Shown here piece after piece: positions 998-28,360 of a DNA stretch of 64,000 bases. The translations under genes and the position numbers were made by a program. The first letter of the stretch is position 1; each line of letters begins with the position of its first letter. The notes beneath the pieces are model-generated. The model was not told the DNA's origin and did no database searches. It was given only the letters and a program-made list of their open reading frames with translations. The DNA is from Owenia fusiformis (lineage: Eukaryota > Annelida > Polychaeta > Sabellida > Oweniidae), in the NCBI GenBank assembly GCA_903813345.2, contig CAIIXF020000012.1:2647318-2711317 (forward strand), read 5' to 3'.

Positions 998-3900
998 ATG
1001 TCTGAGTCGGATGGCCCAAAGCAGCAAAGGTTCACTCTGGATAGCTTGAATGGTTCCAGTAAGGATTTGAATGAGTCCAGGAAGGATCTGAAGCCTTCTC
1101 ATTTGAGCGTTCCAAGCTTCAATGGCAGCATGGGATCGCCAGATTCAAACGCCGAGGAAGATTCAGTATTTAACTACAACCAGGAGAATGGTAAGGATGG
1201 ACCATTGATCTTTACGAGGGGGCTATTCCTGTTTTAAAAATAAAACAAGAATATTGTATAATGGGCCTGTATAATAACTAATTAGATTATTTACATGGGA
1301 GTACTAAGGGTATACGTTCAATCACTTGGATTTTGTTTTCTTCGCCATACTCTTTAAAAATTTCATTTCCTTCTTTAACTCTGTCTTTAATGGCACCTGG
1401 CAAACGTATTTGTTTGCTCTTGTATTTTGGATCATGATTCTAAAAAATATTGACTAATAGAATAGAATAGTTAATGATCTTGTATTTTGGATCGTGGTTA
1501 TAAAAATATTGACTAATAGAATAGAATATGGAATGCAATAATCAGCTGTGTTTCAGACTAAATAACGTGTGAAGGTCTCATTAAACATTGAAATTTTAAA
1601 GAAACACGCAATGTCAAAATGTTTACTAAGTCGTAATGACCTAGTGCCGACGAACTTTAAATAAATAAAAATGGAGAAACTGAATGTATTTGGCAAACAT
1701 CAATTAATTAATAATGTATTACAAATGTATAAGCAACAAAAGCAATAGAACGTGAATGATGTTAGAATTGGAATAGCAGCAATTAGAAATATATTGAAGA
1801 AAGGTAACAAGTATTCGGATAGTAGCAATTAGTAATAGTTTTATTGCTTTAAGTATTGGGATAGTAGCAATTAGTAATAATTTGATTGCTGTAAGTATTG
1901 GGATAGTAGCAATTAGTAATAGTTTGATTGCTGTAAGTATTCGGAATAGTAGCAATTGTAATATTTTGTTGTTGTAAGTATTGGGATAGTAGCAATTAGT
2001 AATAATTTGATTGCTGTAAGTATTGGGATAGTAGCAATTAGTAATAATTTGATTGCTGTAAGTATTCGGATAGTAGCAATTAATAATATTTTGATTGCTG
2101 TAAGTATTGGGATAGTAGCAATCAGTAATATTTTGATTGCTGTAAGTATTCGGATAGTAGCAATAAGTAATAATTTGATTGTTGTAAGTATTGGGATAGT
2201 AGCAATTAGTAATATTTTGATTGCTGTAAGTATTGGGATAGAAGCAATTAGTAATATTTTGAATGCTGTAAGTATTGGGATAGTAGTAATTAGTGATAAT
2301 TTGATTGCTGTAAGTATTGGGTTAGTAGCAATTAGTAATATTTTGATTGCTGTAAGTATTGAGATAGTAGCAATTAGTAATATTTTGAATGCTGTAAGTA
2401 TTGGGATAGTAGTAATTAGTAATAATTTGATTGCTGTAAGTATTGGGTTAGTAGCAATTAGTAATATTTTGATTGCTGTAAGTTTTGGGATAGTAGCAAT
2501 TAGTAATATTTTGATTGCTGTAAGTTTTGGGATAGTAGCAATTAGTAATAATTTGATTGTTGTGAGTATTGGGATAGGAGCAACTAGTAATATTTTGATT
2601 GTTGTAAGTAATGGAATATAGTAGCAATTAGTAATATTTTGATTGCTGTAAGTTTTGGGATATAGTAGCAATTAGTAATATTTTGATTGTTGTAAGTATT
2701 GGGATAGTAGTAATTTATAATATTTTGATTGCTGTAAGTATTCGGATAGTAGCAATTAGTAATAGTTTGATTGCTGTAAGTATTGGGATAGTAGCAATTA
2801 GTAATAATTTGATTGCTGTAAGTATTTTGACAGAAGCAATTAGTAATATTTTGAATGCTGTAAGTATTGGGATAGTAGTAATTAGTAATATTTTGATTGT
2901 TGTAAGTATTTGGATAGTAGCAATTAGTAATATTGTGATTTATGTAAGTATTGGGATAGTAGCAATTAGTAATAATTTGATTGCTGTAAGTATTTGGACA
3001 GTAGCAATTAGCAATATTTTGATAGCTGTAAGTATTGGGATAGTAGTAATTAGTAATATTTTGATTGTTGTAAGTATTGGGATAGTAGCAATTAGTAATA
3101 TCTTGATTGCTGTAAGTATTGGGATAGTAGCAATTGTAATATTTTGTTGTTGTAAGTATTGGGATAGTAGCAATTAGTAATATTTTGTTGTTGTAAGTAT
3201 TTGGATAGTAACAATTAGTAATAGTTTGATTGCTGTAAGTATTTGGATAGTAGCAATTAGTAATATGTTGATTGTTGTAAGTATTGTGATAGTAGCAATT
3301 AGTAATTCTTTGATAGCTGTAAGTATTGGGATAGTAGCAATTCGTAATATTTTGATTGTTGTAAGTAATGGAATATAGTAGCGATTTGTAATATTTTGAT
3401 TGCTGTAAGTATTGGGATAGTAGCAATAAGTAATAATTTGATTGCTGTAAGTATCGGGATAGTAGCTATTAGTAATATTTTGATTGCTGTAAGTATTGGG
3501 ATAGTGGCAATTGCAATATTTTGTTGTTGTAAGTATTGGGATAGTAGCAATTAGTAATATTTTGATTGCTGTAAGTATTGGGATAGTAGCTATTAGTAAT
3601 ATTTTGATTGTTGTAAGTAATGGAATATAGTAGCGATTTGTAATATTTTGATTGCTGTAAGTATTGGGATAGTGGCAATTGCAATATTTTGTTGTTGTAA
3701 GTATTCGGATAGTATCAATAAGTAATATTTTGATTGCTGTAAGTATTGGGATGGTAGCAATTAGTAATATTTTGATTGCTGTAAGTATTGGGATAGTAGC
3801 AATTAGTAATATTTTGATTGCTGTAAGTATTGGGATAGTAGCAATTGCAATATTTTGTTGTTGTAAGTATTCGGATAGTAGCAATTAGTAATATTTTGAT

Positions 3901-6900
3901 TGCTGTAAGTATTGGGATAGTAGCTATTAGTAATATGTTGATTGCTGTAAGTATTGGGATAGTAGCAATTAGTAATATATTGATTGCTGTAAGTATTGGG
4001 ATAGTAGCTATTAGTAATATGTTGATTGCTGTAAGTATTGGGATAGTAGCAATTAGTAATATGTTGATTGCTGTAAGTATTGGGATAGTAGCTATTGTGA
4101 TAATTTGATTGTTGTGAGTATTGGGATAGTAGCAACTAGTAATATTTTGATTGCTGTAAGTATTGGGATAGTAGCTATTAGTAATAATTTGATTGCTGTT
4201 AGTATTGGGATAGTAGCAATAAGTAATAATTTGATTGCTGTAAGTATCGGGATAGTAGCTATTAGTAATATTTTGATTGTTGTAAGTAATGGAATATAGT
4301 AGCGATTTGTAATATTTTGATTGCTGTAAGTATTGGGATAGTAGCAATTGCAATATTTTGTTGTTGTAAGTATTGGGATGGTAGCAATTAGTAATATTTT
4401 GATTGCTGTAAGTATTCGGATAGTAGCTATTAGTAATATGTTGATTGCTGTAAGTATTGGGATAGTAGCAATTAGTAATATATTGATTGCTGTAAGTATT
4501 GGGATAGTAGCTATTAGTAATATGTTGATTGCTGTAAGTATTGGGATAGTAGCAATTAGTAATATGTTGATTGCTGTAAGTATTGGGATAGTAGCTATTG
4601 TGATAATTTGATTGTTGTGAGTATTGGGATAGTAGCAACTAGTAATATTTTGATTGCTGTAAGTATTGGGATAGTAGCTATTAGTAATAATTTGATTGCT
4701 GTAAGTATTGGGATAGTAGCAATAAGTAATAATTTGATTGCTGTAAGTATCGGGATGGTAGCAATTAATAATATTTTGATTGCTGTAAGTATTCGGATAG
4801 TAGCAATAAGTAATAATTTGATTGCTGTAAGTATTTGGATAGTAGCATTTAGTAATATTTTGAGTGCTGTAAGTATTTGGATAGTAGCAATTAGTAATAT
4901 TGTGATTGCTGTAGTATAATACATATTTTTTGAACGGTATATTATAGAAAGCCATAGGGGACGACGGGACAAGATGGGTCGCCAAATGCAGCCAATTTTG
5001 CTGGTCCTTGAAGGGTAGGATACCTGATGCTCTGAAAGACAATAGAATTTTCTTTTAAATTGATTCCCATATTCTTAGGTCTTATTGTACATAATCCTTA
5101 GTCAAGACATATTCGTTCACCGAGTATGCGAATATGGGGAAGAGCTGCCGTTTCAATCTGCGGATGAAGTCGGTCAAGTGGTTATCCTATGTCAAGAGAT
5201 AATTATACACAGGGAGATATGCCGAGTACTAAAATAGTGCTCATGTCATTTCAGCGCTAATTGAGTACTCATTTCAGCAAATATTAGTACTAAATGAGCA
5301 CTCAAGTAGTAATAAATTAGCACTCTGGCAAAAGTGCACTCATGAGTACTCATGCCACGAGTGCTAATTTAGTACTAATTTTGTACTTATTTAGTACCTG
5401 GCCTATCTCCCTTTGTAACAAGCGACATGGATCAAAGAAAAGAAAAATCAGCCCTTGCCCCATAGCCCTTCTTGCCTCGCTCTCCCCTGAGTATTGGGGT
5501 AGTATCACTTTGTAATACAGGGCAGTAGCAGGCAATTGTACTAGGCACGTTATGCTATCGGAATGTGCCTGTATGTATATATGTATAATTTAGGCACATC
5601 GACATCTGTGTACAAAAATAAAACAAAAAGTAAAAGTAGTCTTTTCTCGAATCGTTGAACGTAGGCATGTTTTGATACTAGAACTAGTTGCAGCCACGCA
5701 GGTGGGTTCAGGTAACGTGAGAGGTTGTACCAACGAATCGGAAGTGTACCCTTAGTTTACAGTGGCTGATGCATACGATGGGTCTTTTGGATTATTGTGT
5801 TGGATAATAACGTTTAAAAGTTCCCTTGAGTCATATGCGTGTCACCCCCTCTCAAACATTTGTATTAATAAGTTAGAGAATATAAGAGGGGAGGGGTGAT
5901 TTACTCGTTACTCCCCATGGCTTGTGTCATCTGTTCCCATTCATAGCTCCAATGTAACGTGGGGCTTAGTATCCTCAATACGCAATATGTTGTACTAGAC
6001 CCATGTAAGTATTTGGATGATGGGCGCAGTAGTATGCATTTGTTCAACTGTTTCAGAATTCACCGAAGGCGTGTCCTGTCCCTTATTCTGCGAGCTGCAA
6101 AAACTGTATTTTGAGGAAAATAGCGTGACACCAGAATGGCGAGAAATGGCAAGGTAACAATGAAATATGCTTTCATATGATATATAACATAAGGGGTACG
6201 TGTTTGCTATATACATTTGGTTTTGGAGGGGGGGATTTCGAATGTTATTAATGTAAACACAAATCTGAGAGACTAGGCCTTTATAACAATTTAATAAAAA
6301 TCATAACTATGATGCTCTGTGTATGCATATAACATTATAACTGTTTGAATCTTAGCATCTGCCCTGGGATCCCGGGGATACGTTAATATAATAAAATCTA
6401 TCAAAATCAAATTAGGTTTAAATTGTGAATGAAACAAAATCAGTAATTTCACTCACAAAAATATGTTTTCATAAACCTTAACATTAAAGTGTTATAAAAA
6501 ACAAACGATTTTAGTAGTGTCTCACGGTAAACTCGATGATTTAGCGACAGAAACTATCGAAGCGACGTTAGCTTCATTCATCCCATAAAAAAGGTCTGCA
6601 GTTGTATTCCTTGCTTCATATATTCTCTATAGCATGTATTTGAAGGGTATAAAGTTATCTTGTATAAATGATACAATTCAAAGCTACCTTGGATTAAAAA
6701 AATAAAAGGTCAATCAACCGACATGTACGTGAGACTGCATTTTCAATGTGGTATCATAGGTAACGCAACGCTAAACAACTTTTCTCAACATTGAATGCAA
6801 CTTGTGTGCCTATCTAGCTTAAAATATATTGAGCTATGGGCAACTTTCTATACTATTAAGAATACCAACCGTCTTGTATCATATGGATGGTTTCAAAAAC

Positions 6901-9900
6901 AAAATAGAATATTGTGATGAAATTAAAGTTGTGGTCAAATGCTGTGTAAAGCAATGAAACTTTGTCTGGATTGGCAAGCCATACAAACATCCTCAAGGCC
7001 GTTTAGATAATTTGACTTATTCAAAACAATTCTATAAAAGGATAACTCATTTGAGCAACACGAGTTTATATTTTCATTCTTTCCACTCACCTTTTCAATT
7101 AACTAACACTTTTGACCAAAATGTGTATTTTCCCATTGAACTTGTAAATCAGTGAAATTGGCATGTGTATGCTTTCGAACAACTAACTCCTGTGCATTTA
7201 ATGCAATTTATCTCATCAATATCTATTTTACCATGATATTTGCCATCGTGGATTCATTTACCATTAGCCTATAAGCTAGATTTATAAATTGGCACTAGTA
7301 AACTGTTATCAATTGATTTTGAAAATTGAGTTTGATTTGTTAATATAAACCCAGAAGTCTATTTCGCCCAAAATATAGTCGATGAATATCCCCCTGAAAA
7401 TCCCCCTGATCACCAACTTCTTTTGTAGATGGGTGAAGTACGAGGAGATAGTGGAATCCAATGGTATCCGATGGTCGAAGCCCCACGTCGCCAGTCTCTC
7501 TTATCGGGCACTTCAAGAATTGAAGACATATCTGGATAACGGTGTCGTAAAATTAGGATTCAATGCAGGGACGATTGACGACATTTGGGGTAAAGAGCAT
7601 CAATAAACACTCCCTTCCATAAGTTTGAAAACTAGAAAGCCTGCCAATGTTTGAATCACAATTTTGTTTCTGAATTACAATAGTTAAGAAAATTTAGACA
7701 GATTTAAAAATAAACATGCTTTGATATTAGTGATACAAAACGGGACGTCTGGTTACCAAACCCATTGAGGGGAGTGTACCATTGATTAAACAAACCTATG
7801 GAGGAGAGTGTAGTTCTGTCTAGTGCAATGCAGTGTCGTACGTGTAAATTCACAATCATTTTTGATTCGAAGACAAAATATTAGGGTGATATATTAAAAT
7901 CTGTCAAATCTTGAATATGCTTTCATGAATAGCATAAACAACTATTTTAAATAAATTACATATACAGGGTGTCCCGAAAGTATGCCCCCCCCCCCTAGGC
8001 AGACATATACCAGTGTCGTCATAGTATGTGTGATATATCATTTTAAAGCTTATCCAAAGTTACATTGATTTGCCAAGTATCATGGTTCAACTCTCAAATG
8101 TGAAAAAATTACAGGCATTTCAAAATTTAGTGTTTGGTCAAAATTAAGTTCAATTTTACACCAAATCACTAGTCAACTTCATGGACTTTCCGGGACGGGG
8201 AATGTGATTTAGAATTTTGAATCGATTCAAAATCCGATGACGACCATACCGTTCTGTAATCAGGTCATGATGACCTTCTAGACTAAGGGACGGTTTATAC
8301 TACGTTACATACCGACGTGGTGCGACCTGAACGAACTGCGAATGAGATGGACGTATTGAAGACTGTTTATGAACAAAGTAGCTAATTATTTTAGACGTAT
8401 ATCCCGACCGCAGTCAGACTTAGCCCGTTTTACGACATTTTCATAGGACTGGCAAGAACGGGTAAGAACTAGTTTGGTGTGATAGGGGGGTAAGTAAACT
8501 CTTCTAAAGTGCCTTAATAGGTTTTAAGAGGGATATAAAATTCAACACCCCTATTTGAAGGGCTTTTAAGTTCATATCTGAAGATAATTGCTGCTGTTTA
8601 CATGGCCAAGGGGGGACTCATTGACTAGTAAGTGGAGTAAAATTGAACTTTATTTTGACAAAACACCAACTTTTAAAATGACTGTAACTTTTTCCCATTT
8701 GGAAGTTAAACCATGATACTTGGCAAATCAATGTTACTTTGGATGAGCTTTAAAATGATATATGACACATACTATGAGGACACTGGAATATGTCTGCCTG
8801 GGGGGGGGCATACTTTCGGGACACCCTGTACATGTAATTTATTCAGGCGAACTTGAAACATATACAGCATTTATAGATAAAGACACGAACACTGTTTTAA
8901 ACCATCTTGATCCATTAGGTTTTACTGACTGAAGAAATACACTGGTTCAGACAATATATAAATGATTATACGATCATGACTGAATGTCGTGGTATACAAT
9001 ATAGTAGAACACATATGTTATGCCAATAATGTCCATGTATACATGTATATGGGATAAATTAAATATTTTAATAGCCTGTTTTGAAGATAGAGTTTATCCT
9101 TCTGGAAAATTGTATATCCATCCCTAACGGACCAGAGGATATATCCTATAACCCCAAACGTCCATACATTACATAATGATAAACTTCATATACAAGACGG
9201 ATCATATCTTTAAACATATATTCTCATTGTAGAGGCACTGAAGGAAGACCTTGTCGGTGAAGACATTTGCACCTGGGAAGAGGCTGAAGTCGCCAATGAC
9301 TTTTTGGATCACAGCCCTCATGTCCATCAGCACCAGGTCATCAAATCCTCAAAGACCTTGTCGAGTATGTAGCCTATTGTCTTGAAATTATGAAAAGTGA
9401 TTGAAAACGTATGTCCATCAGCACCAGGTCATCAAATCCTCAAAGACCTTGTCGAGTATGTAGCCTATTGTCTTGAAATTATGAAAAATGATTGAAAACG
9501 TATCTCCTGTGAAAGGCAGAAAAAGTATAGTACTTTTTGAATAATGTACCCTACCTGTAGTTTCTTATAGGTCATCCTTGCGTATATTCTAGCTATCTAG
9601 GGTCATCTTAGTCCGTGCGTTTCTATGGCCATCTTAGTCTGTGCGTTTATTATGCCACAACCATAAGTGGTGACATATTGTTATATATTTTAATACTATC
9701 AAGGGTCATCTTAAGTCTGTGCATATATTCTTATACTATCACGGGTCATCTTAAGTCTGTGCGTTTATTCTTATACTATCAAGGGTCATCTTAAGTCTGT
9801 GCATATATTCTAATACTATCACGGGTCATCTTAAGTCTGTGCGTATATTCTTATACTATCAAGGGTCATCTTAAGTCTGTGCGTATATTCTAATACTATC

Positions 9901-12900
9901 AAGGGTCATCTTAAGTCTGTGCGTATATTCTAATACTATCACGGGTCATCTTAAGTCTGTGCGTATATTCTAATACTATCACGGGTCATCTTAAGTCTGT
10001 GCGTATATTCTTATACTATCAAGGGTCATCTTAAGTCTGTGCGTATATTCTAATACTATCACGGGTCATCTTAAGTCTGTGCGTATATTCTAATACTATC
10101 AAGGGTCATCTTAAGTCTGTGCGTATATTCTAATACTATCAAGGGTCATCTTAAGTCTGTGCGTATATTCTAATACTATCACGGGTCATCTTAAGTCTGT
10201 GCGTATATTCTTATACTATCAAGGGTCATCTTAAGTCTGTGCGTATATTCTAATACTATCAAGGGTCATCTTAAGTCTGTGCGTATATTCTAATACTATC
10301 AAGGGTCATCTTAAGTCTGTGCGTATATTCTAATACTATCAAGGGTCATCTTAAGTCTGTGAGTATATTCTAATACTATCAAGGATCATCTTAAGTTTGA
10401 TCACATTCTTATTATAACTTAGGGTCTCCTACATCAGTGTCGTTTGAAGGTGAAAATGGAGTTCTTGAAGAAGCCACGCCACAAACTCCTAGAAGACTCG
10501 GCAAGGTATACATCACTACATTAATAATTTGAATAAAAGGCAGGATAAGTCCATGTAACTTGACTTATATGGTTAGCAAATTTTGCATTCAATACGACAA
10601 ATAGTGAATAAGCATGAATTCACAACTGGATTGATTTATCATATTTGTGAGAAGACGTCATGGAAATTAATAATATCAGTTGGCTTAGCTTTTTTCATGG
10701 GTAATGGTTTGTTGAAATTGTTGGTATTCATTTAAAAATTTAATAAGTCAATTTAGATATAATATAAATTAATTAATTCATTAATCTTTCTAATACTGTT
10801 CCAAATTCAGTACATTTAATCCATTACATGGTTATGTGGATATCGTACAGTAAAATCAAGAAGAGGGAAAACCCTAGAGCTTACTTACCACCTTCGTTTG
10901 TCAGCGAATATCCGCCTGATTTCAGCCATCTAGTTTCTAATACTACAAGTTACTGTGATGTTTTAATAGATAAAAACACATTCCTTACACCTTTCTTCAG
11001 AAATAAAAACTATAATAATGGAAAACACAGCCGAAATGAACATCATAACTATTTGAAACTATTACAAAATTTTGAATCCGCCATTTTGTTTCTGTCAGGT
11101 CCATTTGACCAATCAGCGACGATGGTCATCTCTATATGAATTTCCATTCGCGTTATGACCATCTCTGAACCCTAGGGTATTCCCTCCTCTAATAGTAGAC
11201 CGGTGTATTGAGATTCATAAGGCTCCCAAACTAAACCATTGACTCCCATGTTAAAAAGTATATAGACCTCGCTACTATGGAGTCATGGACACTTAAGGGT
11301 TTCAATGAGCCATTGGTGGTCCAATTAATTAGACATTTACTTAGTCTCTCGTGACATTAATACAGAGAATACTAAATTATCCACAGGAATTAAGTCGACA
11401 GAATACTGTTCGGCCATAGTTGCCACTGCATAAATAGACAGGCAACTACTGTCATATTTCTGTCGATCTAGTACCTATGTAATTATCTAAACCAGGGAGG
11501 GGGCATTGGCAGAAACTTCTTCGTTGTCAAGAATTCCACATGGGTACAACAATTGATTTAGGGAATTCTTACTTTAATAAGTTTCTGTGAATGGCTCCAT
11601 ATCATACTAAGCTTTTCTCATACATTAATTCTAATTCATCGTATATTTTTGTTTGATGGCTAACGAAGACTAGAAAGGAACATGCATCATTCCCACATCT
11701 TTCACACGGTGCATCACCATCAACACCGACACCGTCTTCTCCAGCCCTCGGGCATAAGGTAAGTTTAAAGAGTAAGTCTTATTCCGTTGTTCGTGATTAC
11801 GTTGAACTGTTTAAAACTGTTTAAACTTATCTAAACATATGTATGCATATTTATATCTTTAGACACCGACTGTTACAAAAACTACGTCGAAACGGTTTGC
11901 TCGTAAAATCCCGAAAAATGCCGAAGGTGCTACGTTACTCGTCGGAAGTGACGATTCTATCCAGCGACCAATCGCAGCATTCATTAGATTAGAGAATAGC
12001 ATCCATCTGCCTGGGTTCTGTGAGGTCAATGTGCCCATTCGGTTTATCTTCGTTCTGTTAGGTCCGTCTTCTGGTGCGCCTGTGATCGGTGAGATCGGGC
12101 GCTGTATGGGTGCTCTTCTGGCGTCAAAGGTGAATGGCTATTAAGATCAATTACTAAAGGATTTTAGCCCAGGGCTGAATAATTGTGGATGATTTAAAGC
12201 ACGAATGTCTCGTATTAGACTTTGAATGAGGGTCGAGGCAATCATTCTATGTTAGTCTCAAGTGAGGGTGAGGATACAAGAAGTGCATTAAACTACCAAT
12301 TCACCGAATTCAGTCGCTTGCTATAATTCTTTTCACATTAAAAAGAACGAAATTGAGCAGTAACTAGAAATATCTATTCCAAATGAGCATTGCTATTAAC
12401 ATATATTAGTTCCAGTACCAACTACAACATGTTATTTCTTCGATTTCAAATTTACTGGCAAGTTGATTGATTTTATTATCTAGGAATTTGGAGACATTGC
12501 GTACTGTTCTAAGCTGAAGTCTCACTTGATCAAGGGCGTGGACAAATTCCTTGACGACGCTACTGTTCTGCCACCTAGCGGCTGGGACCACACCATCAGA
12601 ATAGACCCACCTGCCCAAATATCAAATGTGGTAAATTTGTTTAGCACCATTTGGCATTTATTCATTTTAAAGTCAAGTTAAAAAGTATTTTTGGTGGGTC
12701 ACGATTTTCGGGCCGCAACCGATGATTGTCGTGTACCAAAAACCGAAGATGGCCGACAATGTTTCAGGGAATTTGATTGGTTCCTTCAAACATCTTCAGC
12801 AATTTTCGTGATATAAACATCGTGCTCACCCATTTTTGATGTAGACGTGGTCAGCCTCATTGGGCGAAGCTCCCGTAGAGGAAAAATACGAAGATGACCA

Positions 12901-22900: not shown

Positions 22901-25900
22901 CGAGTGCCATTAGGACCGGCCAAAAAGTTTTCGGATTGGCAGGTGTTCTTTCGAACATGGTAATTTGGGGCAATTTAGAAAAGAATCATGACGAAAAGAG
23001 CGTTCACATGGAGAAGTGTTCAGCTTACCTTGTATTCGCGAATGGAACTTTCGGCTGTCGGCTACCGGATTAAGCTACTATTTTATGAGTAACTAATTTA
23101 AATATGAATAGTACCTGCCACTATTCATTTCATATTTTAATGAGTTTAATGATCATAAAATTGTAGGTTAATCCGGAAGCCTATAGCCTTTATTTGCGCT
23201 CGCGAATACAAGCTTAGAGAGTTGTTGTTCCAAATTTCAAATTACCTAGAAGGTATTTCGTGCTTCCCGGCCATTCCGTCTGGACGATTGTACCTTCACC
23301 CTCTAGGATTTTAGCGACGTTTTTCGAACCTGTAACCCTCACTGTCGGTTTTCCGAGAATGTGTGTCTTGTACACAGTGCCATAACAGTCCGATCTACTC
23401 CGGAAAAAGTCGGCTCCCTATAGTAACAATCAAATAGGACATTTGTTTAAGCTAAGCGTAAAAGAACATAATGTTACATTTTCTTGAGATTAGACTTTCC
23501 ACAGAGTCCCTGTGTTACCATGTACCTCTATATATCGCATCCTCCTAAGCAGGTGTCCAGGTAAAAAGAAAGAAGATATTCTGGATTTTGAAGTCCTGTG
23601 ATCGGAGGATGTATAGAAGAAATGGCCAATTTTGCAAAATATAAGGGGAGTGGGGCAGAGACTCGATGTCTGGATGTTTTGGTCATTGATGTGTTTTTTT
23701 TAAATTTATATTTCGATCATTTTAATAAGTTCATCTAACTTTATAAGGTAATATGTTATTTAATAATTTACGTAAAGATTTGATGTAGACACTGATGTGT
23801 CTGTTAACATTTACATCTACTCGTATGGGGTCAACCCAGTTGTCCGAAACCCAGTTCTCCGAAACCCAGTTGTCCGAAACCCAGTTCTCCGAAACCCAGT
23901 TGTCCGAAACCCAGTTGTCCGAAACCCAGTTCTCCGAAACCCAGTTCTCCGAAAATTAAAAAATTAAATGTCTTAGTAACGAATCTTGTCGCAACTTCGC
24001 GAATCAGGACAGCATTGGTATCACGTTGACATCGGTTAGCCCGGTCAATAATGGGTCCGAAAGTTCACGATCATATATATATTCTTACTAGATTCTCGGC
24101 ACATAGACTTATATGGACATTCTACAAATTTTGAACCGCATTGTCCAGCACGAATCGCACTCCTTCTTGGTGAAAATTCAAGACTGCCGCCAACATTTTA
24201 GACAATTATCACAGTCGAAGAGAATATTCTGGCGAAAGGAATATCTATCTCATTAGAATAACGTATGGACGTCCGTGACAATTATATATATTCATTTGAT
24301 AATTTTTTTCATTCCCTTTTCTCAATAAAATATGGTTAATTATGTTTTCCAATATCAATTGATAATATTTCTACCCTGAAAAATATCTAAAAAGAAGATT
24401 TTGGTTGTTCAGTACCACCCATTGATTTCGTCCAAATTTTCGACAAATTAATAAAATATGCTCATTTCGTATAACTTATATGTGGCATATATACGTATCA
24501 GATGTCTATCCTTTTTTCATCATAATATAAGAGGTTTGTATGTTTTAGTAGAAACGTATTCCTTTCCAAACATTTAGATTTAAGAATTTCTCCCATTGGT
24601 GGTATTGTTCAAAATCAAAACTGTGTTTTGCGATATATTGAACTGTTGAAGTAAGTGTGTAATAGTTTGTAGTAGAGCCAAGATTTGATCTGTATCATGT
24701 ACGTACCCTGCATAAAAAAATTCGTTTTTAGTGTGCCATAGATGTCAACCATTAACTATTGCAGAATCAAAAAAAGTTTTGTGAAAAATTAGGATAATGT
24801 TTCAAAAGTTATACACCGGACAATAAATAACTATACTCAATGCAGACAGGGAGTTTTAATTGCCCAAAAACTGAGTATCATAATGCATTTGTATCTCTTT
24901 AGTATCTTGCATGACTCGTTCATATGAATTCTTTATTTCTACCTCGTTCCTTATACATTCTGAGACAGTTCAACCTTTGCCCCACGTCCTGTTCGTCGTT
25001 AGTATGTTGTCACTCGATACGCGGTCACACGGTCCTAACTTCGACCGTTAATTTGAATTTTTGACCTACCTGATATTTGAAAATCAATTGCGAGTCTCAT
25101 ACTGCACCGTTTTTCTTCAAACTTGTTCCATTCAAAGCATGACAAAAATCTCTTTCTGATGGTACGTTATTATCTTAAACAGAGTTCCTACTTCCAGCGT
25201 AATTTTGGTCCCCAGCTGTAAGAAGGCCTTCTAACAGCTGGGGAGTGGGGACCAAAACCGGCGCTGCTAGAACGAGGGACTCTTTACAATAAAGTAATGC
25301 ACTGACAGAAGTGCAATTTTGTTTTGCTTTTAATGGTATAATGGAAGAAAAACGGTGCAGTATGAGACTCGCAATCCTTGATTTTCAAGCATCTGGTAGG
25401 TCAAAAATTCCAATTAACGGTCGAAGACCGCGTGATTGCAGAAAGTCAGAGACAGCACTCCTTTTTTCTTTTTAAATCATGTATATATTTCTTATTTTAT
25501 AACTTTGTATACATCAGGTCATTTTACAATATTGCAATATTTTTTTAAATAGATACAATTGCAATTATTTAAAACATTATTACAATAGTTTACAAATATA
25601 ATGTAACATAAGTTGTTTAACCATTCATCAAAATAAGTATACTTAGTGTCTTGTACCTTATAGCCAAAGACAAGAGTTTATACTTTTTCAAGCTTAATTC
25701 AATTTTAAAATCATCTTAAATATAATTTTCAAGTGGGTCTATTACATTAGTAGGCCTACTCTATGATATTGAAAGAACAAATGTTTATAGTATTCTCAGG
25801 CCCGTAGCCAGGGGGGGGGGGTTGGCAGGGTTCGGGCGAACCCCCCCCCCCCTGGCCAAAAATTCTTTCAAAATCATGCAGTTCTTCACCATTTTTAGCA

Positions 25901-28360
25901 CTTTTCAAGTGATTTTGACCATATTTGGGCCTAAATTGTCAAATGTGAACCCCCCTGCGAATTTTTGAACCCCCCCCCTTGGAAAATCCTGGCTACGGGC
26001 CTGATTCTACTTGTCTGAAAATATCACACTTGTCATTAACAATTAGTTTCCATCATGATCTTAGGAGTCACTGGCGAACCCAGAAAAAGCCTAAAAAGGC
26101 CCTTTTGGTCAATACTGGGCCTTTTAAGGCCTTATTTTTCAATTTCAGGCCAAATTTTTAAGAAAACGGTCCTCAAAATTTCAAGATTTTGGCCAACTTT
26201 TGGGTTTTAGGGAAGTTTTTTATCTGACCTGAATTTGCCCCACTTGTTTGTTCCCAGATCCGCCCCTGGAAGTAATTGTTTGCATGGTAGAATGTAATGT
26301 AAAAGTTTGTATTTGAAATTGGCCACTTTTTATTTTTGGATTGCTTTAAAAGAATCCAAGTATGTTGAAACAGCATTTGACTATTTTGAATTTCACATAG
26401 ATTAATTCAAAATGATTCCAAATATGTTTAGTTGCTATAAGTTCCAGCAAGATTGAATATATGTCTCTAGGACTTGCATGTTTATCCAAAAATCTATAAT
26501 GCTTCAATTTACAGTCATAAAACCATAAAACTTACATTTGTATTAACATATATACGTACATCTGCTTGCCTCACTAAATATTTTAACTATATATTGAAAT
26601 GGCAAAGATTGCTTAACAGTTATATATTCTGCCATCTGTTTGACCCTTGATTTGAGCTTCAGACCCTATATTTAAGGGGTCAGTACCCGGTGTTTGTAAC
26701 AAATGGCAGGCTGTAACAATGTAAATGTTAATGCCTTAATCGTTAATGGATGAAGTGGGATGGGAGGTATCCCACTTATAGAGGTCCATTTAACATTAAT
26801 GAGTTGGTCTTGGCACTCTGAAATGTTCCACTTGACATATTTCACTCCAATCCATCTAGCTCTATGAACGAGCACTCTTTCATTGGTAAAGGGTGTATTT
26901 GAGAGTAAATATCAACTGAACGATTCCTCCATGGGCTAGTATTTAGCCTAATAAAAACTGTCGAAAGATGAAAATACAGGTGATACAGATCTTCAAATAA
27001 ACAAAGTTAAATTATGCTATTCTCATTGCAAAGTGGCGTTTACATATTAACATACATAGGGGTCTACAATTTTTAAACCAATTTTCTTTATGCCCCATTG
27101 GGCTTTTTGAGAGGGAACAACATTTTTCCAATGCGTGATGGGCGTTCATAAAAGGGAAATAGTTTTCCCAAGCCAGTGGGCATTTATTTAGTAAAGTTGA
27201 CGTCGTGTACATCTTTTGAAATCCAAAATTATTCTTCATTTAGGTACTCTGTTCGAGAAATAGAGATTAAATTCAAAAAGATGAAGTGAGTTTACATGGC
27301 GAAAATGAAACTTCTTGCGAATGGGAGAACATCCAATTTGATACGGAGGACAGCCTGTCTTCGTTTCCAGTTAATCCCAAGTGATTACGTTTAGAATGTT
27401 TTGTTCTTTTACATTTTACGATTTGATAAGAGACAGAGACTAATTAAATGCGACGAAACATTTTGACAACGTAATATGTGTACTGTTTATTCTTAAAGTT
27501 TTATGCGTTAACTTATTTTATCGGTTTCAAAATGTTTCATTTTATTTTGCCTATATAAAATGTATTGAATAAGATAAGATCAACTGTTCCGTAATATATA
27601 TTGTGTTTTGATGACCTTTTTTAGAATCACAATGTAAAATAAATCCCCCGTTCCTGTCATTCTGGTAACGCCGTGTAATGGATGCAATTCAAAGTGAGAG
27701 AGAGATCTATACATCAGAATGCGTCCATGCCATTAATTTTGCCAAATACATGACATGAAACTGGCTTGAGGTGCGTCCCCCTTTATCTGGTAAATTATGA
27801 CTAAATTTTTCGGACAACTGGGTTTCGGACAACTGGGTTTCGGAGAACTGGGTTTCGGAAAAATGGGTTTCGGAGAACTGGGTTTCGGACAACTGGGTTT
27901 CGGACAACTGGGTTTCGGACAACTGGGTTTCGGACAACTGGGTTTCGGACAACTGGGGTGCACCCAATATCAATTATACATTACATTAAGTATGTCAGAA
28001 ACAACACAATTCATTGAACTTTTTGTAAATTTTGAAAAACTATACAAGTGGAAATACGATCTTTAAAAAGTCAATAATATAATGTTTTACCCCAAACAAA
28101 TGTTAACCCCGGGCCCAGACCCAACTTCGCAAATGCATTGTGTTTTTCCAATATATCAGATATGAAATAACCTACAACTATAACTATCTTACCTTCATGA
28201 TGAACGTGAATGTCTCCCCGAGAAAAGGGACCCCCATGCTACCCGGGGGTAAAGGTAGATCGCTGTTAGGGTCCTTCATATTGGTATGCACCAACCATAG
28301 TTTCCATGCCAACAACAACAAAATGGTGGGTAGAATCATCGGCGTCACTAACGCCAACAT
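19981..28360 (-). CDS. CYP26-like cytochrome P450 (8 exons, 497 aa)
   Basis: Exons in transcript order: 28193-28360, 23246-23417, 22473-22622, 22080-22255, 21545-21665, 21018-21139, 20615-20800, 19981-20379. The total is 1494 nt with all phases consistent. The N-terminus is a hydrophobic ER anchor followed by LPLPPGSMGVPFLGET, as in CYP26. Further landmarks are VYKTHILGKPTVRVTG, the K-helix KEVLR (E343, R346), FDPDRW, and the heme loop FGWGDRSCVG with ligand Cys433. Length and order match vertebrate CYP26, which hydroxylates retinoic acid at the ER membrane. Odd point: the I-helix reads AGHLPAAS at 282-289, where CYP26 has GGHETTAS, so the acid and threonine used for O2 activation are absent. 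Function is therefore uncertain: a retinoid hydroxylase with altered chemistry, an isomerase/lyase-like P450, or an impaired paralogue. No stop or frameshift is present. The start is the first ATG after an acceptor-like CATTTCAG. Tail-to-tail with SLC4. Confidence 0.9.
21755..21888 (-). mobile_element. 134-bp MITE, copy 2 (TA target site)
   Basis: The ends GGGAGTTTAAGCTTGC and CAAGCTTAAACTCCC are imperfect inverted repeats flanked by TA at 21753-21754 and 21889-21890. It has the same length as, and opposite orientation to, the copy at 18038-18171. It lies in a P450 intron. Confidence 0.85.
22895..22965 (+). repeat. Fragment of the CAGTAAAACCTGT dispersed MITE family
   Basis: GTCCGAGTGCCATTAGGACC followed by GGATTGGCAGGTGTTC matches the left half of the fuller copy at 33778-33952. 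Confidence 0.5.
23024..23216. mobile_element. Inverted-repeat element in P450 intron 2
   Basis: Left CTTACCTTGTATTCGCGAA and right TTCGCGAATACAAGCTTA regions pair imperfectly over about 70 bp on each side (also CCGGATTAAGCTAC against GTAGGTTAATCCGG). Confidence 0.55.
23828..23955 (+). repeat. 15-bp minisatellite, left terminal copy
   Basis: About eight units of CCCAGTTGTCCGAAA or CCCAGTTCTCCGAAA in tandem. Confidence 0.95.
25015..25441. mobile_element. Foldback element with internal hairpin
   Basis: About 100-bp arms pair at 25015-25120 and 25340-25441 (shared GCGAGTCTCATACTGCACCG and its complement; TTGACCTACC and GGTAGGTCAA). A separate inner stem, TTTTGGTCCCCAGCTGT against ACAGCTGGGG...GGGGACCAAAA, sits at 25212-25258. 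Confidence 0.75.
25797..26003. mobile_element. 207-bp MITE, 5-bp target duplication ATTCT
   Basis: Termini CAGGCCCGTAGCCAGG and CCTGGCTACGGGCCTG are perfect inverted repeats. The direct repeat ATTCT flanks it (25792-25796, 26004-26008). Poly-C/G tracts are internal. It is related to the element at 35000-35189. A 5-bp duplication suggests a hAT5-like or other non-mariner transposase. Confidence 0.9.
26069..26268. mobile_element. Degenerate hAT-like fragment
   Basis: The right end CCCAGATCCGCCCCTG is the complement of CAGGGGCGGATCTGGG, a terminus style common in hAT elements. The left end CACTGGCGAACCCAG is a weak match. No clean target duplication. Confidence 0.4.
27806..27957 (-). repeat. 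15-bp minisatellite, right terminal copy (inverted)
   Basis: About ten units of GGGTTTCGGACAACT with GAGAACT and GAAAAAT variants. It is the inverse of the array at 23828-23955. It gives spurious open frames of repeated SETQL or FGQLG residues. Confidence 0.95.

Follow-up and report, generated by a model that had tools for sequence, protein, structure and literature searches.

Where an intron holds dozens of copies of an octamer able to pair with U1 snRNA, the question arises whether these sites are maintained for the docking of U1 or were multiplied together with the tandem unit in which they lie. This question is posed by the first coding intron of an SLC4 gene in the window, i.e., the whole 64-kb stretch of DNA analysed here, to which positions refer unless another locus is named. 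A sequence-only reading had reported about 74 U1-complementary sites at 1809-4917 and considered that they might sequester U1, suppress premature polyadenylation (telescripting) or act as decoy donors. The array, its coordinates and 74.1 copies were recovered, while the exact octamer, GTAAGTAT, was found in 61 of the roughly 74 units (Table 1).

The host gene is, by its predicted coding sequence, an SLC4 bicarbonate-transporter gene on the plus strand. Exons 1 to 3, when joined, matched Band_3_cyto (Band 3 cytoplasmic domain; E 2.8e-22) as well as solved sodium bicarbonate transporters (best E 2.1e-16), and more exons with matches to Band_3_cyto and HCO3_cotransp are situated downstream in the window. 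The array starts 618 bp past the exon 1 donor, ends 1,139 bp short of exon 2 and carries its octamers on the sense strand of the gene, with 61 of 61 on the plus strand, in agreement with its earlier placement in intron 1.

Table 1. Coordinates of the SLC4 exons, the octamer array and its relatives, and other long tandem arrays.
Feature	Position	Strand	Remarks
SLC4 coding exon 1	998-1190	+	from ATG; donor reads ATG, then GTAAGGAT; phase 1
SLC4 intron 1 (first coding intron)	1191-6056	+	4,866 bp; numbered by coding exons
Diverged edge unit adjoining the array	1753-1797	+	37 of 45 positions as in the unit; octamer not intact
42-bp minisatellite	1809-4917	+	74.1 copies, 89% matches, 61 exact GTAAGTAT
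Detached diverged relic of the unit	5490-5517	+	24 of 28 positions as in the unit; starts AGTAT; octamer not intact
Lone GTAAGTAT	6005-6012	+	ends 44 bp short of exon 2; may be a relic, with 13 of 14 positions as in the unit
SLC4 exon 2	6057-6153	+	phase-1 join to exon 1
Long minisatellite nearby	9684-10396		40 bp x 17.8
Long minisatellite nearby	L011 125-1751		147 bp x 11.0
Long minisatellite nearby	L011 3970-4801		74 bp x 11.2
Second, much longer GTAAGTAT array	L012 2330-9019		36 bp x 186 copies; unit looks unrelated

With its head-to-tail units of 42 bp the array falls within the 10-100 bp range of minisatellites. In the window GTAAGTAT occurred 62 times compared with 3.08 expected from 100 shuffles, 61 times in the array and once at 6005, and all 62 copies were on the plus strand. 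For a unit shuffled at constant composition, the probability of containing the octamer was 0.0056 on one strand, or 0.0086 with first-order dependence. The octamers owe their number to the repeated copying of one unit, and a motif count over a tandem array should be read with caution, as one event counted many times.

Among 74 aligned units 53 were distinct. The distance between units over lags 1-24 had its minimum at lag 12, and seven pairs of identical units were each exactly 503 bp apart, a block duplication which fits length instability of the array as represented in one assembly. Local alignment to the unit gave a score of 50 for the edge unit (maximum 27 in 200 Markov-sampled sequences) and of 36 for the detached relic (maximum 30, likewise in 200), and the score of 23 for the lone octamer at 6005 was not significant. 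In the whole assembly a 23-bp core of the unit, with up to three mismatches allowed, had 67 forward and 0 reverse matches, at this array only, compared with 0 and 1 matches for its backward control; a 431-bp piece of the array had 11 matches, all at this array, in a search that skips very common words. The confinement of the core to the array, the diverged flanking relatives and the identical units 503 bp apart together point to local amplification. A dispersed repeat family or transposon was also considered as the origin of the unit and is not supported, the core having been found only at the array.

How common such arrays are in this genome was assessed by counting octamer pairs separated by 20-50 bp, forward and reverse, with octamers of the same composition as controls; these counts include several long arrays, each of which gives many pairs. 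GTAAGTAT formed 472+302 = 774 pairs and the backward octamer 463+467 = 930, AGTTAGAT 113+96 = 209 and its backward form 212+176 = 388, GATAATGT 367+246 = 613 and its backward form 438+168 = 606. Pairs of the splice-donor octamer, second of the six in number, thus fall inside the range covered by the five same-composition controls. When the pattern was lengthened by one fixed base the outcome was mixed: GTAAGTATT gave 269+24 = 293 pairs, the present array included, compared with 119+113 = 232 for the backward control, and GTAAGTATM gave 156+80 = 236, below the 256+190 = 446 of its backward control. Among the matches listed, at least 15 other clusters of GTAAGTAT with three or more listed pairs were found in the assembly, the units of which look different by eye; examples have units of 36 bp (186 copies), 52 bp and 41 bp. 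Minisatellite loci numbered 16 in the window, four in the 10 kb upstream (L011) and 17 in six arbitrary 10-kb stretches. None of the latter contained an array of ten or more copies, so that long arrays are not ubiquitous, while five arrays of at least ten copies are present in the window and its upstream 10 kb taken together.

The complementarity of the octamer to the 5' end of U1 snRNA, as asserted in the sequence-only reading, was confirmed in the same assembly, where 42 U1 loci were scored and all six that were read have ATACTTACCTG as their 5' end (forwards in L006-L009, as the complement in L005 and L010); GTAAGTAT can therefore pair with U1 over eight bases. On C9, at 23745153-23771556, 34 matches to the U1 snRNA gene follow one another, mostly about 750 bp apart. 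The same reading had called the sites near-ideal 5' splice sites, a description which overstates them. Pairing extends only from +1 to +8, with -1 and -2 unpaired, and the predicted duplex of the consensus array site reaches -7.3 kcal/mol compared with -14.0 kcal/mol for a perfect donor 11-mer, a difference due to the bases of the consensus units upstream of the GT, of which -1 is T and -2 is C or T. Nine putative donors of the SLC4 gene, mostly read by eye beside Pfam exon hits and at least one of them doubtful, ranged from -5.3 to -10.5 kcal/mol, so that the array consensus beats four and trails five. The exon 1 donor was predicted at -8.5 kcal/mol, a value reached by 0 sites of the array. 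By these predicted energies the array donors are middling, not near-ideal. Their density is high: sites at or below -6.5 kcal/mol amounted to 22.5 per kb in the array compared with 2.1 and 2.0 per kb on the two strands of the window downstream of intron 1, i.e., about eleven times denser. An RNA structure exposing the octamer was considered and set aside, as the predicted probability of all eight bases being unpaired was 0.05, which ranks eleventh among 42 windows; by eye, the octamer could be enclosed within the unit by a short stem, ATTGCT/AGCAAT.

In splice acceptors and polyadenylation signals the array is poor. The best array AG with C or T at -3 had a pyrimidine fraction of 0.58, whereas four real acceptors ranged from 0.67 to 0.83. 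None of the 280 array AGs combined a fraction of at least 0.75 with C or T at -3, but the measure is coarse, three of the four real acceptors themselves falling below 0.75; within this coarseness the earlier remark that no strong acceptor lies in the units holds. Recursive splice sites have an AG directly before GTAAGT, together with a pyrimidine tract. Such a site was looked for in the consensus units and rejected, since these read GCT or GTT before GTAAGT, with no AG before the GT. AATAAA or ATTAAA occurred 0 times in the array, four times in the 618 bp of intron 1 before it and twice in the 1,139 bp after it, the density after the array being 1.76 per kb compared with 2.16 per kb in the rest of the window. 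Lacking these hexamers and, by the coarse measure, a good acceptor, the array has little inside it on which telescripting or the formation of pseudo-exons could act.

Whether the octamer is protected from change was addressed by parsimony: when the 53 distinct units were placed on a tree, it took 5 of 79 inferred changes compared with 15 expected. This speaks weakly for the sequence-only reading, under which the octamer should be better conserved than the rest of its unit. The octamer was the second quietest of 42 windows (binomial P 0.0012; column-shuffle P 0.0087), and the P for some window of the unit being equally quiet was 0.20. Conservation by frequency in the distinct units gave a permutation P of 0.023, omission of the four most variable columns a binomial P of 0.038, and a re-run on slightly different rows 4 of 77 changes. 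The replication set comprised 24 arrays, 13 with GTAAGTAT, among them the present one, and 11 with control octamers, and changes were countable in nine and eight of them, respectively. Pooled, the eight other GTAAGTAT arrays showed 52 octamer changes compared with 62.2 expected, which was not significant (P 0.11), and the eight control-octamer arrays 50 compared with 48.2. When each octamer was ranked by conservation within the array that carries it, GTAAGTAT was more conserved than the control octamers by three measures (Mann-Whitney P 0.005, 0.074 and 0.038), a comparison biased by hand-picked arrays and by the choice of a longer exact pattern for finding 9 of the 13 GTAAGTAT arrays, since such a pattern selects for conserved copies. 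A TG step, perhaps more mutable, is present in one control octamer, and the consensus of L021, L022, L023, L032 and L034, which seems to consist of several units merged, was given little weight. Both the diverged edge unit and the detached relic lack an intact octamer. Overall, the evidence for selection on the octamer is weak and mixed. That selection maintains the array as a docking stretch for U1, with a protected GTAAGTAT core, drifting spacers and an array length that tunes the processing of intron 1, is very unlikely; if the modest conservation of the octamer were real, the locus would provide a natural test of how clustered middling U1 sites affect first-intron processing.

The individual functions that could be ascribed to the octamers are to be judged against these results. 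As decoy donors the units would bind U1, compete with the exon 1 donor and slow or modulate the splicing of intron 1 in proportion to array length, for which the position of the consensus site inside the range of the nine donors, the density of sites at or below -6.5 kcal/mol and the deficit of octamer changes could be cited; the exon 1 donor is matched by no site of the array, pseudo-exons would have to form without an acceptor that is good by the coarse measure, and the pooled GTAAGTAT arrays elsewhere fell short of significance, so that this explanation is considered unlikely. U1 telescripting is described in PMC10404622 as acting at cryptic intronic polyadenylation sites. Such a mechanism presupposes intronic sequences that resemble 5' splice sites, and U1-pairing octamers are indeed dense in this first coding intron. 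The absence of AATAAA and ATTAAA from the array sets it apart from such a system, the density of these signals past the array is no higher than in the rest of the window, and a few U1 sites would probably suffice, leaving 61 middling ones unexplained, which makes a suppression of premature polyadenylation by array-docked U1 highly improbable.

Spliced introns are usually degraded quickly, as presumably is that of the SLC4 gene, which speaks against a sequestration of U1 snRNP by array transcripts. Each transcript carries 61 octamers; U1 is multi-copy in this genome (42 scored loci, 34 of them in the single run on C9) and sequestration is probably implausible in stoichiometry for that reason, its likelihood being close to nil. 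The functional part of the sequence-only reading is not supported, given that arrays of same-composition octamers are similarly abundant, the duplexes are middling and AATAAA and ATTAAA are absent from the array.

It is, by contrast with these functional explanations, very probable that the array is a locally expanded intronic minisatellite, largely neutral, and a selected role for the octamers is not indicated. A stretch of intron 1 which contained GTAAGTAT by chance would have been amplified in place, presumably through replication slippage or unequal exchange. A later re-duplication, of a block some 12 units long, is shown by the seven identical unit pairs. As part of the intron the array would be transcribed and then, in the normal case, lost on splicing of the exon 1 donor to the exon 2 acceptor; now and then a single octamer may pair with U1 or serve as a weak decoy donor.

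The array belongs to a known general kind, the intronic minisatellites, here with donor-like units. With ordinary intronic minisatellites (VNTRs) it shares head-to-tail units, block duplication, a diverged edge unit and local occurrence, but its unit has a U1-complementary octamer, as do the at least 15 other clusters listed in the genome. The nearest likeness is the minisatellite of human IFI6 (6-16, G1P3; Turri et al., 1995, as cited in PMC4526556 and PMC2572611), likewise a tandem array in a gene with units resembling splice donors. Donor-like sense-strand units, characteristic of the IFI6 type, are present here as 61 copies of GTAAGTAT to which the U1 of the same assembly is complementary over eight bases. 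The citing literature states that IFI6 units serve as donors, whereas the present array starts 618 bp past the exon 1 donor and ends 1,139 bp short of exon 2, with units that are donor-like on the sense strand as judged from sequence alone. A U1-site minisatellite other than that of IFI6 was not noticed among the papers listed in the literature search, which does not prove that none exists.

Two further tandem arrays, each with a unit of 15 bp, lie about 4 kb apart in the window, at 23833-23954 and 27808-27957. To the eye, almost the same 15-mer recurs in the two units in opposite orientations (CCCAGTTCTCCGAAA and, on the opposite strand, CCCAGTTGTCCGAAA), as might be the case for the subterminal repeats of a mobile element.
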